Source: Candidatus Hodarchaeota archaeon (lineage in GTDB: Archaea > Asgardarchaeota > Heimdallarchaeia > Hodarchaeales > Hodarchaeaceae). From it: DNA of 37,293 nucleotides. The first letter of the stretch is position 1, and the number at the start of each line of letters is the position of its first letter. Where the stretch lies: positions 1 to 37,293 of the forward strand of contig JAEOTY010000154.1 of the NCBI GenBank assembly GCA_016839625.1, read 5' to 3'. Below, in pieces: positions 12,235-17,427 of the stretch. The translations under genes and the position numbers were made by a program. The notes under the pieces are model-generated. The model did not search any database. It saw only the letters and a list, made by a program, of their open reading frames with translations, and was not told the origin of the DNA.

Positions 12235-14019
12235 TTGTCACAAAAAAATCCGAAATTAATCTTTATTCAGAACATTGCAGAGCAGGAACGCCGTCTAGAT
12301 CATCAAATATCATCAGAGGCTAAATCCACGATAAAAAATCTTCAACATCGTCCCAAATCATACTATACAATAGAAGATGTAGAAGAGGTTGTTGAAACGC
12401 TCAAAGGAAAGATGCAAGCAATAAATAAGTCAGCACACACCGAGTTCTCGAAAAAAGGACTAAGAGGTATTGATAACATTGATACAATTAGTTCACCAGA
12501 CACTTTATTCCCAAATGAGGAAATCACCAGACTTGAAGAAGAAAATCGGAACCTAAAAGAGAAAATATCTGAAAGCGAATCATTGGAAATGAAAATAGAT
12601 GAACTGCAAATACTCTTAGATGAGAAGGAAACAGAAATAGCTCAATTACAAAGTCAAAGTGGAATAGACTCGGGTAAAGCTCATGATCAAATAGAAGAAT
12701 TGAATCGACTCCAAGAAGCATATGATGAGGCTCAACGGGCTGAAAAGAAAGCAATACAAGATCGTGAAAAGATAGAAGCTGAATTTGAGACTGTCGGTAA
12801 TGCTCTAATGTCTACAAGGCTCGAAATCGAAGAACTTCAAGAAGCATTAGGAAGCAAAGATATCGAAATTGAAAATTTAAAATCGGAAAAAAATATCCAA
12901 ATAGAGAACCTAAAATCTGAGGTCCAAGTATTAAGTTCTCAAGCAGAGGAAAATATTGAGCTAAACGAAAGTATTGCAACACTTCAGGAAGAAATCCTCA
13001 GTCTTGAAGATAAGCACAGACAAGAACTTGAGAACCAGGGGAAGAATGCTTCAAATATGACCCAACAAATTGACGAAATGGAATCAGAAAGAAACCAGAT
13101 GAAAGAAAGAATTTCACAATTAGAGCAAGAGAATGAAGATTTGTTATCAGATGCAGGAGAAACAAGTCAGGAAGCAATAGACATACGCAACAAATATGAG
13201 GAATCGCAACAATTATTAAATCAAAAAGAAGAAGAGAATAAAGAACTACTTCTTAGAGTAGAGAGGATTGAGAAAGAATCACTGAAATCTTCAGAACAAC
13301 TTGATACTCATCGTAATGAAAAAGAATCGTTAGAGTCTCAAGTGAATGATCTTGAAGTGCAGCTAAAGGGGAAAAACGAACGAATCCAGACAATTGAAGC
13401 AGATCGTAATGAATTACGAGAAAATCTTGCTAGTATGAAAATTGAACATGAAAAACAAAAAACCGTTGAAATCGATCTTAAAAGCCAACTTGGTATAAAA
13501 GAGCGTGAACTTGAAGAAAGACAGAAAGATATTGAAAGATTACGTGAAAAACAGGAGGAAGTTGTAAAACAGGCTGATTATTCTCGTTCTAAACAAGCTG
13601 AGGTTGAACGTGAACGAGATAAATATGAAAGTAATTTAAAATCCATTCGGACGCAGCTAGAAGATACAACAAATGAGCGAGATCGATTTATTAAGAGATT
13701 TGATGAAATAGAGGAAGATTTAGCAGACAAAAATTCCGAGATTGAATCATTAAAAGAATCGAACAATTACTTAGAAGAAAATATTAGCAAATTAAAAGAA
13801 ACTTTTGAGAACTTCAAAATAAACATGTCTAAGAATCCAAAATATGCGCTCCTATTTGTTCTTCAGGATATTCAACAAGGTACTGTTGAAGAGCTAGCTA
13901 AAACAGTTGGTTTACTTAAGGGAGGTGCAACTCGGTTACTAAAGGAACTTGACTCAGAAGGCTGGATTGATTTTAACGAAGAAAAATATTCTGCAAAGCT
14001 AAAAAAACAAATATTTTAA
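12235..14019 (+). CDS. Long coiled-coil protein with C-terminal winged-helix-like domain
   Basis: About 400 residues of Glu/Lys/Gln-rich heptad-like sequence ending in KYALLFVLQDIQQGTVEELAKTVGLLKGGATRLLKELDSEGWIDFNEEKYSAK (wHTH-like). TTG start. Confidence 0.75.
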   Translation: MSQKNPKLIFIQNIAEQERRLDHQISSEAKSTIKNLQHRPKSYYTIEDVEEVVETLKGKMQAINKSAHTEFSKKGLRGIDNIDTISSPDTLFPNEEITRLEEENRNLKEKISESESLEMKIDELQILLDEKETEIAQLQSQSGIDSGKAHDQIEELNRLQEAYDEAQRAEKKAIQDREKIEAEFETVGNALMSTRLEIEELQEALGSKDIEIENLKSEKNIQIENLKSEVQVLSSQAEENIELNESIATLQEEILSLEDKHRQELENQGKNASNMTQQIDEMESERNQMKERISQLEQENEDLLSDAGETSQEAIDIRNKYEESQQLLNQKEEENKELLLRVERIEKESLKSSEQLDTHRNEKESLESQVNDLEVQLKGKNERIQTIEADRNELRENLASMKIEHEKQKTVEIDLKSQLGIKERELEERQKDIERLREKQEEVVKQADYSRSKQAEVERERDKYESNLKSIRTQLEDTTNERDRFIKRFDEIEEDLADKNSEIESLKESNNYLEENISKLKETFENFKINMSKNPKYALLFVLQDIQQGTVEELAKTVGLLKGGATRLLKELDSEGWIDFNEEKYSAKLKKQIF

Positions 14020-14066: not shown

Positions 14067-14921
14067 ATGGAATTGGAGAAAATCATTGGAATCTGTAAAC
14101 AAAACCTAATCGGTTTAAAGGCAGAGATTCAGTTAATCACTTCAGCTATTAATAGTAAAATCCCAGTAGTAATTGAGGGAGAATCTGGAACTGGGAAAAC
14201 AGAATTAGGAAAAACAATCGCACAAGCCTTAGAACGCCCTTTCTATCGTGTTGACGGGGATGAAAATCTCACAATCACTCATTTACGTGGATGGTTTGAT
14301 CCACCATTGGTTATGAAATCTGGTTTTGGAGAGAAAAGTTACATCCCTGGTCCTCTAGTAAATGCTATGCGAAAAGGTGGCCTATTTTTCTTTAATGAGG
14401 TCAACAGAGCTCCAAGTGAATCTATAAATGGAGTTCTAGCCGCTCTCGACGAAAGACAAATTGAAGTTCCCCAACTTGGTCGAATTCATGCAGTAGAGGA
14501 ATTTTACTCGATTTTTGCTAGAAATCCCTTAGAATATGTAGGGACAAATCCATTGCCTGAAGCTTTTTTTGATAGATGCATTTTAATTCGCCTCGAACAC
14601 AAAACTGGTGACGAAGCTGAAAGAATCGTGAGATTACGTACAAATTGTACTGATAGTGATCTAATTACAAAAGTTATTCTTTTTACAGATCGAACTAGAT
14701 CCTCTGAGAATTTTGAAGTAGGAGCAAGTGTCCGTGCAGCTATCCAGCTTACACAACTCTTAAAAAATAGTCCGAGAACTCCAGATATTGTATTTCCTGC
14801 AATCTATGCAGTTTACTCTGGTAAAGTAAAAATGCAATCAGATACGGTAAAAACTGTTGAAAATTGCCTTTATGAAATCGCAGAACCAATATTTTTTCCC
14901 ACGGATAAAAAAAAACTATAG
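14067..14921 (+). CDS. MoxR-type AAA+ ATPase (zero-frame product, 284 aa)
   Basis: Walker A EGESGTGKTELGK, Walker B GGLFFFNEVNRAP, sensor region FARNPLEYVGTNPLPEAFFDRC; ends DKKKL* in an A9 run. Confidence 0.9.
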   Translation: MELEKIIGICKQNLIGLKAEIQLITSAINSKIPVVIEGESGTGKTELGKTIAQALERPFYRVDGDENLTITHLRGWFDPPLVMKSGFGEKSYIPGPLVNAMRKGGLFFFNEVNRAPSESINGVLAALDERQIEVPQLGRIHAVEEFYSIFARNPLEYVGTNPLPEAFFDRCILIRLEHKTGDEAERIVRLRTNCTDSDLITKVILFTDRTRSSENFEVGASVRAAIQLTQLLKNSPRTPDIVFPAIYAVYSGKVKMQSDTVKTVENCLYEIAEPIFFPTDKKKL

Positions 14922-14941
14922 GGCGGGATTATATTCCCGCC
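14907..14941 (+). promoter_or_regulatory. Candidate -1 programmed frameshift cassette: A9 slippery run, 6-nt spacer, GC-rich stem-loop
   Basis: gat AAA AAA AAA cta tag; A9 at 14907-14915; heptamer A_AAA_AAA 14909-14915; spacer CTATAG; stem GGCGGGA(14922-14928)/TCCCGCC(14935-14941), loop TTATAT; no U-tract after the stem. Confidence 0.6.
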
Positions 14942-15949
14942 TCAGGAAAACAAACTGTATCGATTCGTGAAACAAAACAACACAAACACCTACTCGAAAG
15001 AATCTACGAGTATCAGCTACAACAAAGATTAACCACTGAATCAGCTCTAGATTTTACGAAACAAGCAGTTAAAACCAAAAATCTAAGAGCAATTGAGATA
15101 CTATCAGAGGTTTACCCTCGTGTTGTCGCTGAGGCTTTACATATCGATTTTGGTGATGCTGACTTTATACTGGAATCGAACTCATTAGTTTTTCAAATCA
15201 AAGAATTTCTCTCACCTGAAGAAAAAAGATTACTCTTCAAAAAAGTTATTCCAAAATTATTCAGACAAGCTGAGAGAATATTTCATACTATTGATAGAAC
15301 CAAATATCCTGTACAAGTTTCCTATCTTCCTGGCCATGCTTGGAATTTAGAGAGAACCATTGAGAACTTTCTTCTTTCTGGAGACACCACGTTTACTTAT
15401 GACCATGTAATTTGTTCTAAGAGAAAAGATAAACAAAAAAATGTTATTCTCCTGATTGATAAGAGCCATTCAGTTCTAGTATACCTTAAATTGATTATTC
15501 TTACTTCAATTATGTTTAGTTTTGTTATAAATCTAACCGATTTTGCTATTATCGGTTTTGACACTCATCCAGAGGTCATTAAAAGATTCATTGAATCAAA
15601 CATTACAAATCGGGATGTTATAGACCGTTTAATTAGCATCAGCTCAGGAGGAAAAACAAACATCTACTCTGCTTTACAAACTGCTAATAAAGAATTTTCT
15701 CACCAAATTAAACCTAAGAAAACTCTAGTAATGATTTCTGATCTCCTTGCCACTAGTGGAGGGGACTTTTTACCAGTTCTTAAACGAATGGACGATGTTC
15801 GTATTATTCTAACTCCACGAAGACAAACACTCCAGTTGACAGCTCCTATCATTAACCAGCTACGAAAACTACCTAATGTCAAACTCTACTTCATGAAACC
15901 TGACGAACGATTAATTCCCACATTGTTGGAAAAAGTTCTCTATGATTGA
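14909..15949 (+). CDS. VWA (von Willebrand factor A) domain protein, open frame lacking its own canonical start; probably expressed as a C-terminal extension of the upstream AAA+ ATPase (fusion ~627 aa, 14067-15949)
   Basis: Uninterrupted -1 frame ...TIGRDYIPASGKQTVSIRETKQHKHLLERIYEYQLQQRL...KNVILLIDKSHSVL...GGKTNIYSAL...LVMISDLLAT...; MIDAS motif DKSHS at 15458-15472 lies upstream of the ORF-track TTG at 15491, so the 152-aa ORF is truncated. Confidence 0.8.
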   Translation, partial: KKTIGRDYIPASGKQTVSIRETKQHKHLLERIYEYQLQQRLTTESALDFTKQAVKTKNLRAIEILSEVYPRVVAEALHIDFGDADFILESNSLVFQIKEFLSPEEKRLLFKKVIPKLFRQAERIFHTIDRTKYPVQVSYLPGHAWNLERTIENFLLSGDTTFTYDHVICSKRKDKQKNVILLIDKSHSVLVYLKLIILTSIMFSFVINLTDFAIIGFDTHPEVIKRFIESNITNRDVIDRLISISSGGKTNIYSALQTANKEFSHQIKPKKTLVMISDLLATSGGDFLPVLKRMDDVRIILTPRRQTLQLTAPIINQLRKLPNVKLYFMKPDERLIPTLLEKVLYD

Positions 15950-17427
15950 GAATCGGATACAACTCTTGAATGTGACTTCGTTTCAGTCGAGATTTTTTTT
16001 ACCATTTGTTCATATTTCTCATAATGAAAAAGTCGGTACACAGTTAGAATTCGCTCCCGAAAACCAGGATGGTCATAATCCTTTTCTGGTGTTTGAAAGA
16101 GCTCATGCTCAAATATAATTTTGCTTGGTTGAGCAATTAAAGTTGCAATGAAACTGTCAATTTCTTCTGAATCGAGTGTTTGGCTAGAATCAGAATCAAA
16201 CCGACGCCAATCAATCGTTTTTTCCTTTAGAACACTTGGTGTAAAAACCCTCTCTTCCTCTGTTAATGAATCAAAATAGTTGGCTCTTTTTTCTAATAGT
16301 ATAGGAACAGCTTGGTTTATAAGCTGTGTCCTCGCCTCAAGATCTAAACCGACGCCGTAATGATTCACTAGATCTTCCAGTTTCTCCTCAAGGAATAATT
16401 TGGGGGCAATTTCACGAGCAACATCCTCATTGAGCTGTGTTTTAGGAAATCGTTGATAAACATTTCTTAAAAAGGTGTTTGAGGGTTTCTTTTCTTCTGA
16501 GAGGTTAGAGAGCCACGTGATCTCTCGTGATAAGACTTGCATTGCTTCACTACGTTGTCCTAAGTGAATTAAAGAGTTGATTAATACATCGGAACCAACT
16601 AATTGCGCGGCAAAATAGTCAGCTAAGTATTCGGCCTGACGATTTGCAGAATAGAGAAACCTCACAGTTATCCTAGTAAGTAAAGCTAAAACCAGATATA
16701 CTAAACCCAAAAAGATTACGCGTTCTATTACTGTTACCAGATCTGGAGTATCAAATATTGCATCTAGAATTCCGGTGACAATCTGTAGATAGATAAAAAG
16801 ATAAGCAAGATTGAGAAATAACCTAGGGATTGACAGAACTAGCCGAAAAAGACTATCACCATTTTTTACATGAGCAAGCTCATGAGCAATCACAGCTTCA
16901 ATTTCTTCCTCGCTCAAGATTTCTAATACATTTGTATTGAGTACCAAATATGGTCTTCGAAGAAAGGGAATAGGAAGAAGATCTAGACTAAATGCATTGG
17001 GTACGGCTTTCCGGAACACAAAAATCTTAGTTACATTGATGTTCACCCTTTTTGATACATGTGAAACCAATGAAATGGTCTTTTCGACATGCTGAGCCTC
17101 TTCGGGAGTATATCCAGGCCCGTACAATGGTCTTGGATAAATTTGAATCATATTTTTATTTGAAAAAACGACATTAACAAGAAACACTAATAATAGTATT
17201 TGTAAGCCTGCAGTCATTAACAGCAGTAAGAAGGTAAATTGAGGGTTTGCAAATGGATTAATAGACACGTAAAATCCGAGGAATCGCGCAAATGCTCTCA
17301 AAGGTTCTGTTCGTTGTTCCTGACTAATAGAAATCCAAGAAACAACAATTATTTGAGCAAAGGTTAAAATGAAGAATGTTCCAGCATTAACAATCCTAGA
17401 TACCCTGATTCTTAGTATTGAAACCAT
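15940..17427 (-). CDS. M48 family membrane metallopeptidase (HtpX/Ste24-like)
   Basis: EAVIAHELAHVKNGDSLFRL (HExxH) with several hydrophobic TM segments; second zinc-ligand region RQAEYLADYFA. Overlaps the VWA 3' end by 10 nt convergently. Confidence 0.9.
   Translation of the reverse strand: MVSILRIRVSRIVNAGTFFILTFAQIIVVSWISISQEQRTEPLRAFARFLGFYVSINPFANPQFTFLLLLMTAGLQILLLVFLVNVVFSNKNMIQIYPRPLYGPGYTPEEAQHVEKTISLVSHVSKRVNINVTKIFVFRKAVPNAFSLDLLPIPFLRRPYLVLNTNVLEILSEEEIEAVIAHELAHVKNGDSLFRLVLSIPRLFLNLAYLFIYLQIVTGILDAIFDTPDLVTVIERVIFLGLVYLVLALLTRITVRFLYSANRQAEYLADYFAAQLVGSDVLINSLIHLGQRSEAMQVLSREITWLSNLSEEKKPSNTFLRNVYQRFPKTQLNEDVAREIAPKLFLEEKLEDLVNHYGVGLDLEARTQLINQAVPILLEKRANYFDSLTEEERVFTPSVLKEKTIDWRRFDSDSSQTLDSEEIDSFIATLIAQPSKIIFEHELFQTPEKDYDHPGFRERILTVYRLFHYEKYEQMVKKISTETKSHSRVVSDSQS

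Follow-up and report, generated by a model that had tools for sequence, protein, structure and literature searches.

At the junction between a MoxR-type AAA+ ATPase gene and the VWA coding region behind it in a Hodarchaeota genome, the signal for a programmed −1 frameshift proved to be real and conserved. The window (the whole stretch of DNA that was analysed) comprised positions 1–37,293 of the forward strand of contig JAEOTY010000154.1 of Candidatus Hodarchaeota archaeon. We consider it very likely (probability approximately 0.92) that programmed −1 ribosomal frameshifting yields MoxR AAA+ and MoxR-VWA subunits in a set ratio. The support for this is comparative and lies at the sequence level: the reading register, slippery sites, hairpins, missing start codons, conservation, in-frame fusions, and a lineage in which the gene seems to have been split by duplication. 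The trans-frame protein itself is inferred, without expression, proteomic or reporter data, as are the shift efficiency and the ring stoichiometry.

The AAA+ ORF ended with the codons GAT AAA AAA AAA CTA TAG and matched the Pfam models AAA_5 (2.7e-21) and AAA_3 (7.1e-14), and the −1 frame matched VWA_2 (1.1e-8) and VWA_CoxE (4e-8; Table 1). The −1 frame began exactly after an in-frame TAA (14906–14908), which confined the transition to the stretch between 14909 and the zero-frame stop, where A_AAA_AAA is located. A shift at this heptamer gave a predicted product of 627 aa. The arms of the downstream stem (14922–14928 and 14935–14941) formed 7 bp, were GC-rich and enclosed a 6-nt loop. A 61-nt stretch with the stem had a folding energy of −17.2 kcal/mol (z = −4.0), and none of 200 shuffled sequences was equally stable. 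Programmed −1 frameshifting is expected to involve an in-frame X_XXY_YYZ heptamer with an open −1 frame, a downstream structure at 5–9 nt, and evolutionary conservation of register and signal. The heptamer and conservation criteria were met; that of the downstream structure was met in the window and clearly in only part of the other clades. Judged from sequence alone, the first usual start codon of the −1 frame is not a plausible start for the VWA protein because it sits past the MIDAS motif, and the VWA frame appears to be reachable only by shifting. Before that codon, the −1 frames of the window and of orthologue L004 differed at 28, 17, and 48% of first, second, and third codon positions, respectively; the −1 frame thus evolves as coding sequence upstream of any usual start.

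Table 1. Features of the MoxR-VWA junction, in window coordinates.
Feature	Position	Strand	Remarks
MoxR-type AAA+ ATPase ORF	14067–14921	+	284 aa, zero-frame product; stop TAG 14919–14921
Slippery heptamer A_AAA_AAA	14909–14915	+	Zero-frame codons AAA AAA, within A9 run 14907–14915
Spacer CTATAG, 6 nt, contains zero-frame stop	14916–14921	+	
Presumed stimulatory stem-loop GGCGGGA-6nt-TCCCGCC	14922–14941	+	Folding and conservation
−1 frame: helical N-terminal region and VWA domain, 346 codons	14909–15949	+	Stop 15947–15949
MIDAS motif DKSHS	15458–15472	+	−1 frame
First ATG/GTG/TTG of the −1 frame (TTG)	15491–15493	+	Downstream of MIDAS motif

An earlier note, made without database searches, had described the A9 run, heptamer, spacer, stem, start-less −1 frame and MIDAS motif ahead of the TTG, and had judged the stem, which lacks a U-tract, not to be terminator-like. 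All of these points held on recheck, and its 284-aa and 627-aa products held as predicted ORF readings. Its interpretation as a programmed −1 frameshift was supported by the register, the varied heptamers, the rare stem codons, the in-frame fusions, and the split-gene lineage described below.

Searches of related genomes yielded same-genus orthologues with 63–76% AAA+ identity, to which one (L032) was added by a contig scan; records of this genus go under the names Ca. Hodarchaeota, Hodarchaeum mangrovi and Ca. Heimdallarchaeota. All close orthologues (49–76% protein identity, some in single-contig genomes) shared the −1 register, a slippery heptamer (A_AAA_AAA, A_AAA_AAC or A_AAA_AAT) and, downstream of it, a GCGGG/CCCGC stem, and in all of them the VWA region could be aligned from the first post-slip codons. 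The stem sequence was unchanged in 10/10 distinct sequences of the window's group. Read in the shifted frame, it encodes Arg by CGG and Pro by CCC, which make up only 4.8% of the Arg and 13% of the Pro codons in these genes. Both recurred at the stem despite commoner synonyms, pointing to selection on the RNA. Formal covariation, tested within each stem alignment, was weak because most pairs never vary (five of seven in the window's group) and was not used as proof. The orthologue alignment proposed in the earlier note therefore showed the frame offset, heptamer and stem to be conserved in close relatives, with in-frame fusions or separate genes in some other lineages.

The surroundings of the gene were shared within the genus only and included HypF, a coiled-coil winged-helix protein, an M48 peptidase and a cation ATPase. 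In the window, the coiled-coil protein (594 aa, with a C-terminal MarR-like winged helix; 12235–14019, + strand) is encoded just 5' of the AAA+ gene and was kept within the genus at 55–58% identity. The M48 peptidase gene (15940–17427, − strand), likewise found beside the locus in the same genus only, is convergent with the VWA frame and overlaps its end by 10 nt. Neighbours in other families included MutS, PAPS reductase, YdjM and BadF. Since the surroundings were not conserved across families, functional inference from gene neighbours was dropped and no client protein could be assigned.

Profile searches of the class (60 genomes) and the phylum (232 genomes), after which the loci were fetched, returned 125 distinct loci with the VWA frame at −1 and overlapping the AAA+ stop; at 70% identity, these formed 29 clusters. 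The −1 arrangement thus spans the Asgard phylum and several paralogous families. An in-frame X_XXY_YYZ heptamer lay within three codons of the AAA+ stop in 21 of the 29 clusters, compared to 0.5 expected from the background rate of 1.8% that these AAA+ genes show internally at matched phase (binomial P about 1e-30, phylogeny ignored). X_XX at −10, −7 or −4 was present in all 29 clusters (7.2 expected). By locus, the heptamers were A_AAA_AAA (26), U_UUU_UUC (24), A_AAU_UUU (15), U_UUU_UUA (13) and A_AAA_AAC (6), besides further types that included A_AAC_CCU and C_CCU_UUU at single loci. P-site U_UUU (e.g., in U_UUU_CAA or U_UUU_UAG) occurred at 23 loci. The 8 clusters without a near-stop heptamer, among them the large family f19, mostly had P-site U_UUU alone, usually as U_UUU_CAA or U_UUU_UAG; at locus L121, U_UUU_UUC was placed further upstream. 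We infer that tandem tRNA slippage accounts for heptamers of such varied X and Y (A_AAU_UUU, A_AAC_CCU, C_CCU_UUU, U_UUU_UUA), which no simpler mechanism fits.

Folding just after the stop was more stable than in control windows (mean z of −1.45 vs. −0.12, P = 2e-7). Strong hairpins of unrelated sequence occupied the same place in separate clades, i.e., GCACGGCC/GGCCGTGC (L135), CCCGAG/CTCGGG, and GGGAATTC/GAATTCCC (L188). In several clades, no obvious hairpin followed the stop. A tree of the AAA+ domains, with limited deep support, showed the −1 arrangement throughout, and the in-frame fusions of family f23 and the +1 clade f4 were placed among −1 lineages.

In-frame fusions and separate genes served as natural controls. 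In f23 (L197, L198, L200, L229), AAA+ and VWA are fused in frame in proteins of 668–730 aa, and two genomes (G181 and G182) each carry a frameshifted copy plus an in-frame fused paralogue. At L153 (G029:C74, family f6), an AAA+-only gene is followed by a separate gene for a 643-aa AAA+-VWA protein with an altered Walker A motif (GRSGSGKR). This pair recalls ChlI/ChlD. It possibly represents a frameshift gene resolved by duplication, although this is inferred. With in-frame fusions in one lineage and separate AAA+-only and AAA+-VWA genes in another, both products appear to be wanted. In family f4 of the class (L028–L031, L115, L123–L125), the VWA frame is instead offset by +1 and follows a conserved AAG TTT TTT CGG. 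Most members have an ATG at +10 to +13. Because L028 lacks one until +52, a +1 frameshift, from UUU to UUC ahead of the CGG codon, is conceivable in this family.

Further copies were also encountered. A third paralogous MoxR-VWA family in the class (L137–L140, L142), distinct from that of the window, had the VWA frame at −1 as well, with A-runs reaching 10. Two bacterial copies, from Nitrospira sp. and Nitrospirales MAGs (L057, L060), were 42–43% identical to the AAA+ protein of the window and had an A10 run with the VWA frame at −1. Of 148 genomes sampled in a survey of the Nitrospira phylum, just one, the source of L057, had the family. The two copies thus appear sporadic, perhaps laterally transferred with the frameshift kept.

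The gene pair combined an AAA_3/AAA_5 MoxR-class ATPase with an adjacent VWA coding region, as expected of MoxR/VWA pairs, and in the VWA MIDAS motif (DKSHS) the D, S and S were invariant. A search of PDB sequences with the VWA profile gave zero matches. The predicted VWA model (pLDDT 81.7) later gave matches in a fold search, the best being NorD in NorQD complexes, followed by the MIDAS domain of Rea1; the MDN1 MIDAS domain was also among the matches. Membership of the ChlD family was rejected (TIGR02031, BchD-ChlD: 16 bits vs. a cut-off of 499.55). Individual midasin AAA domains scored up to 67.5 bits, compared to 78.8 bits for NorQ, and the high total score of midasin is a sum over several domains. 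As its per-domain scores were no better than those of NorQ, no special kinship with midasin was shown and none is claimed.

Explanations other than ribosomal frameshifting were considered. The earlier note had allowed for transcriptional slippage, in which RNA polymerase gains or loses an A on the A9 run and produces mixed mRNAs, one of them coding for the fusion. The A9 of the window, the runs of 8–10 nt at 12/125 loci and the precedent of transcriptional slippage on an A9 in Thermus dnaX (PMC3711429) speak for it. However, no homopolymer longer than 6 nt was present near the junction at 91/125 loci, several loci use A_AAC_CCU or A_AAU_UUU, and the conserved hairpin at 6–7 nt spacing is a translational feature. 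With such short runs at most loci, slippage failed as a general cause and is very improbable as the main explanation, although it might still contribute at the A9 of the window. The same note had also raised one missing A (A9 instead of A10), due to misassembly or to a real inactivating indel. The rival considered here was that of an in-frame fusion gene disrupted by such an indel of recent date, or merely by an error in sequencing or assembly. Homopolymers are indeed error-prone, and A10 would give a continuous frame. Nevertheless, the same register was found across independent assemblies at 49–69% VWA identity, single-contig genomes among them, and also where no long homopolymer was present. 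This rules out the missing-A alternative for the family and all but excludes an error or indel as the explanation; A10 in raw reads would affect only the genome of the window.

The remaining possibility is that of two genes, with the VWA protein translated from its own transcript or through termination-reinitiation at a non-AUG codon. As a rule, MoxR and VWA proteins are encoded separately, rare codons (e.g., ATA 14918) occur close to the junction, and several clades have an in-frame ATG about 60 nt past the stop, which could yield a VWA-only product. Against this, 86/125 loci had no ATG, GTG or TTG between −40 and +40, and the −1 frame overlapped the stop every time and was open through the slippery site. 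Ordinary starts do occur in more distant MoxR genes of the same genomes (L143–L151), where the next ORF has a usual start within 11 nt and registers are mixed. In-frame fusions also occur. We therefore regard a two-gene arrangement as very unlikely.

Points that weigh against programmed −1 ribosomal frameshifting are the weak covariation, the clusters with P-site U_UUU alone, the clades lacking a clear hairpin, the downstream ATG of several clades and the +1 frame of f4. Under this preferred reading, one gene would be read in two ways. Completion of the zero frame would give the MoxR-type ATPase, while some ribosomes would pause at the GC-rich hairpin just past the stop, with two tRNAs on A_AAA_AAA, and slip back one base into the −1 frame to give the AAA+-VWA fusion. 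Both products would probably co-assemble into a MoxR ring bearing one or a few covalent VWA (MIDAS) domains, and the frameshift rate would fix the subunit ratio. This ring was modelled on MoxR6:VWA1 complexes such as NorQ/NorD, in which the NorQ hexamer carries one NorD (NorQ6:NorD1; PMC9976466). By inference, each hexamer would contain about one fused subunit at a shift of approximately 15–20%; this value and the roughly 6:1 ring are not backed by data on a complex. The same holds for the inferred action of the ring on a client protein, which remains unidentified.

A close parallel is chlD (fs-chlD), in which frameshifting gives the small and medium subunits of Mg/Co chelatases, AAA+ and AAA+-VWA; it is reported from bacteria and from certain methanogens (PMC3711429, PMC9227772). 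There, too, a single gene, an AT-rich slip site and a downstream RNA structure are involved. The Asgard AAA+ is, however, MoxR-like, its VWA part is CoxE-like/VWA_2, the arrangement is phylum-wide, and no chelatase context was seen. The archaeal MoxR/VWA equivalent suggested in the earlier note was supported, but proved wider, extending across the phylum and several paralogous families. In dnaX (tau/gamma), an A-rich heptamer and a hairpin likewise set the ratio of short and long AAA+ subunits, but the shift makes the short product there and the long product in the Asgard gene, and the AAA+ families differ. NorQ/NorD, CbbQ/CbbO and RavA/ViaA also pair a MoxR ring with a MIDAS VWA partner, but as two proteins from two genes, whereas in the Asgard gene, frameshifting is proposed to attach the VWA covalently to part of the ring subunits. 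Sulfolobus fucA1 is an archaeal −1 programmed frameshift as well; its shift is limited to certain strains, relatives being full-length, and its purpose is unknown (PMC8211752), whereas the Asgard site is kept across a phylum. Midasin (Rea1/Mdn1) combines six AAA+ modules and one MIDAS VWA domain; its AAA domains match the Asgard profiles and its MIDAS domain the VWA model, but it is a single eukaryotic polypeptide. A bolder reading, in which the MoxR-VWA frameshift is ancestral to Asgard archaea, provides each AAA+ hexamer with about one VWA-bearing subunit and is a counterpart of midasin, possibly resembling a pre-fusion state in the eukaryotic line, appears unlikely.

A 2021 review of archaeal recoding listed one chromosomal gene with demonstrated −1 frameshifting (fucA1), a suggested methanogen chelatase case and some haloviruses, and did not mention Asgard archaea (PMC8211752). 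In the open-licence literature searched, we found no paper on MoxR frameshifting and no work devoted to frameshifting in Asgard genes; earlier notice elsewhere is not excluded. With the present case, the chelatase strategy of producing both AAA+ and AAA+-VWA proteins from a single gene extends to MoxR machines. Asgard AAA+-VWA proteins have probably been mis-annotated as two genes. A signal conserved across a phylum, with slip sites that change composition under the X_XXY_YYZ rule, would constitute a natural comparative set for frame shifting by the archaeal ribosome, and the motor-to-MIDAS-adaptor ratio becomes directly testable. Asgard archaea are the nearest relatives of eukaryotes known so far, and a single gene of theirs appears to give either a motor alone or the same motor with a fused metal-binding domain.
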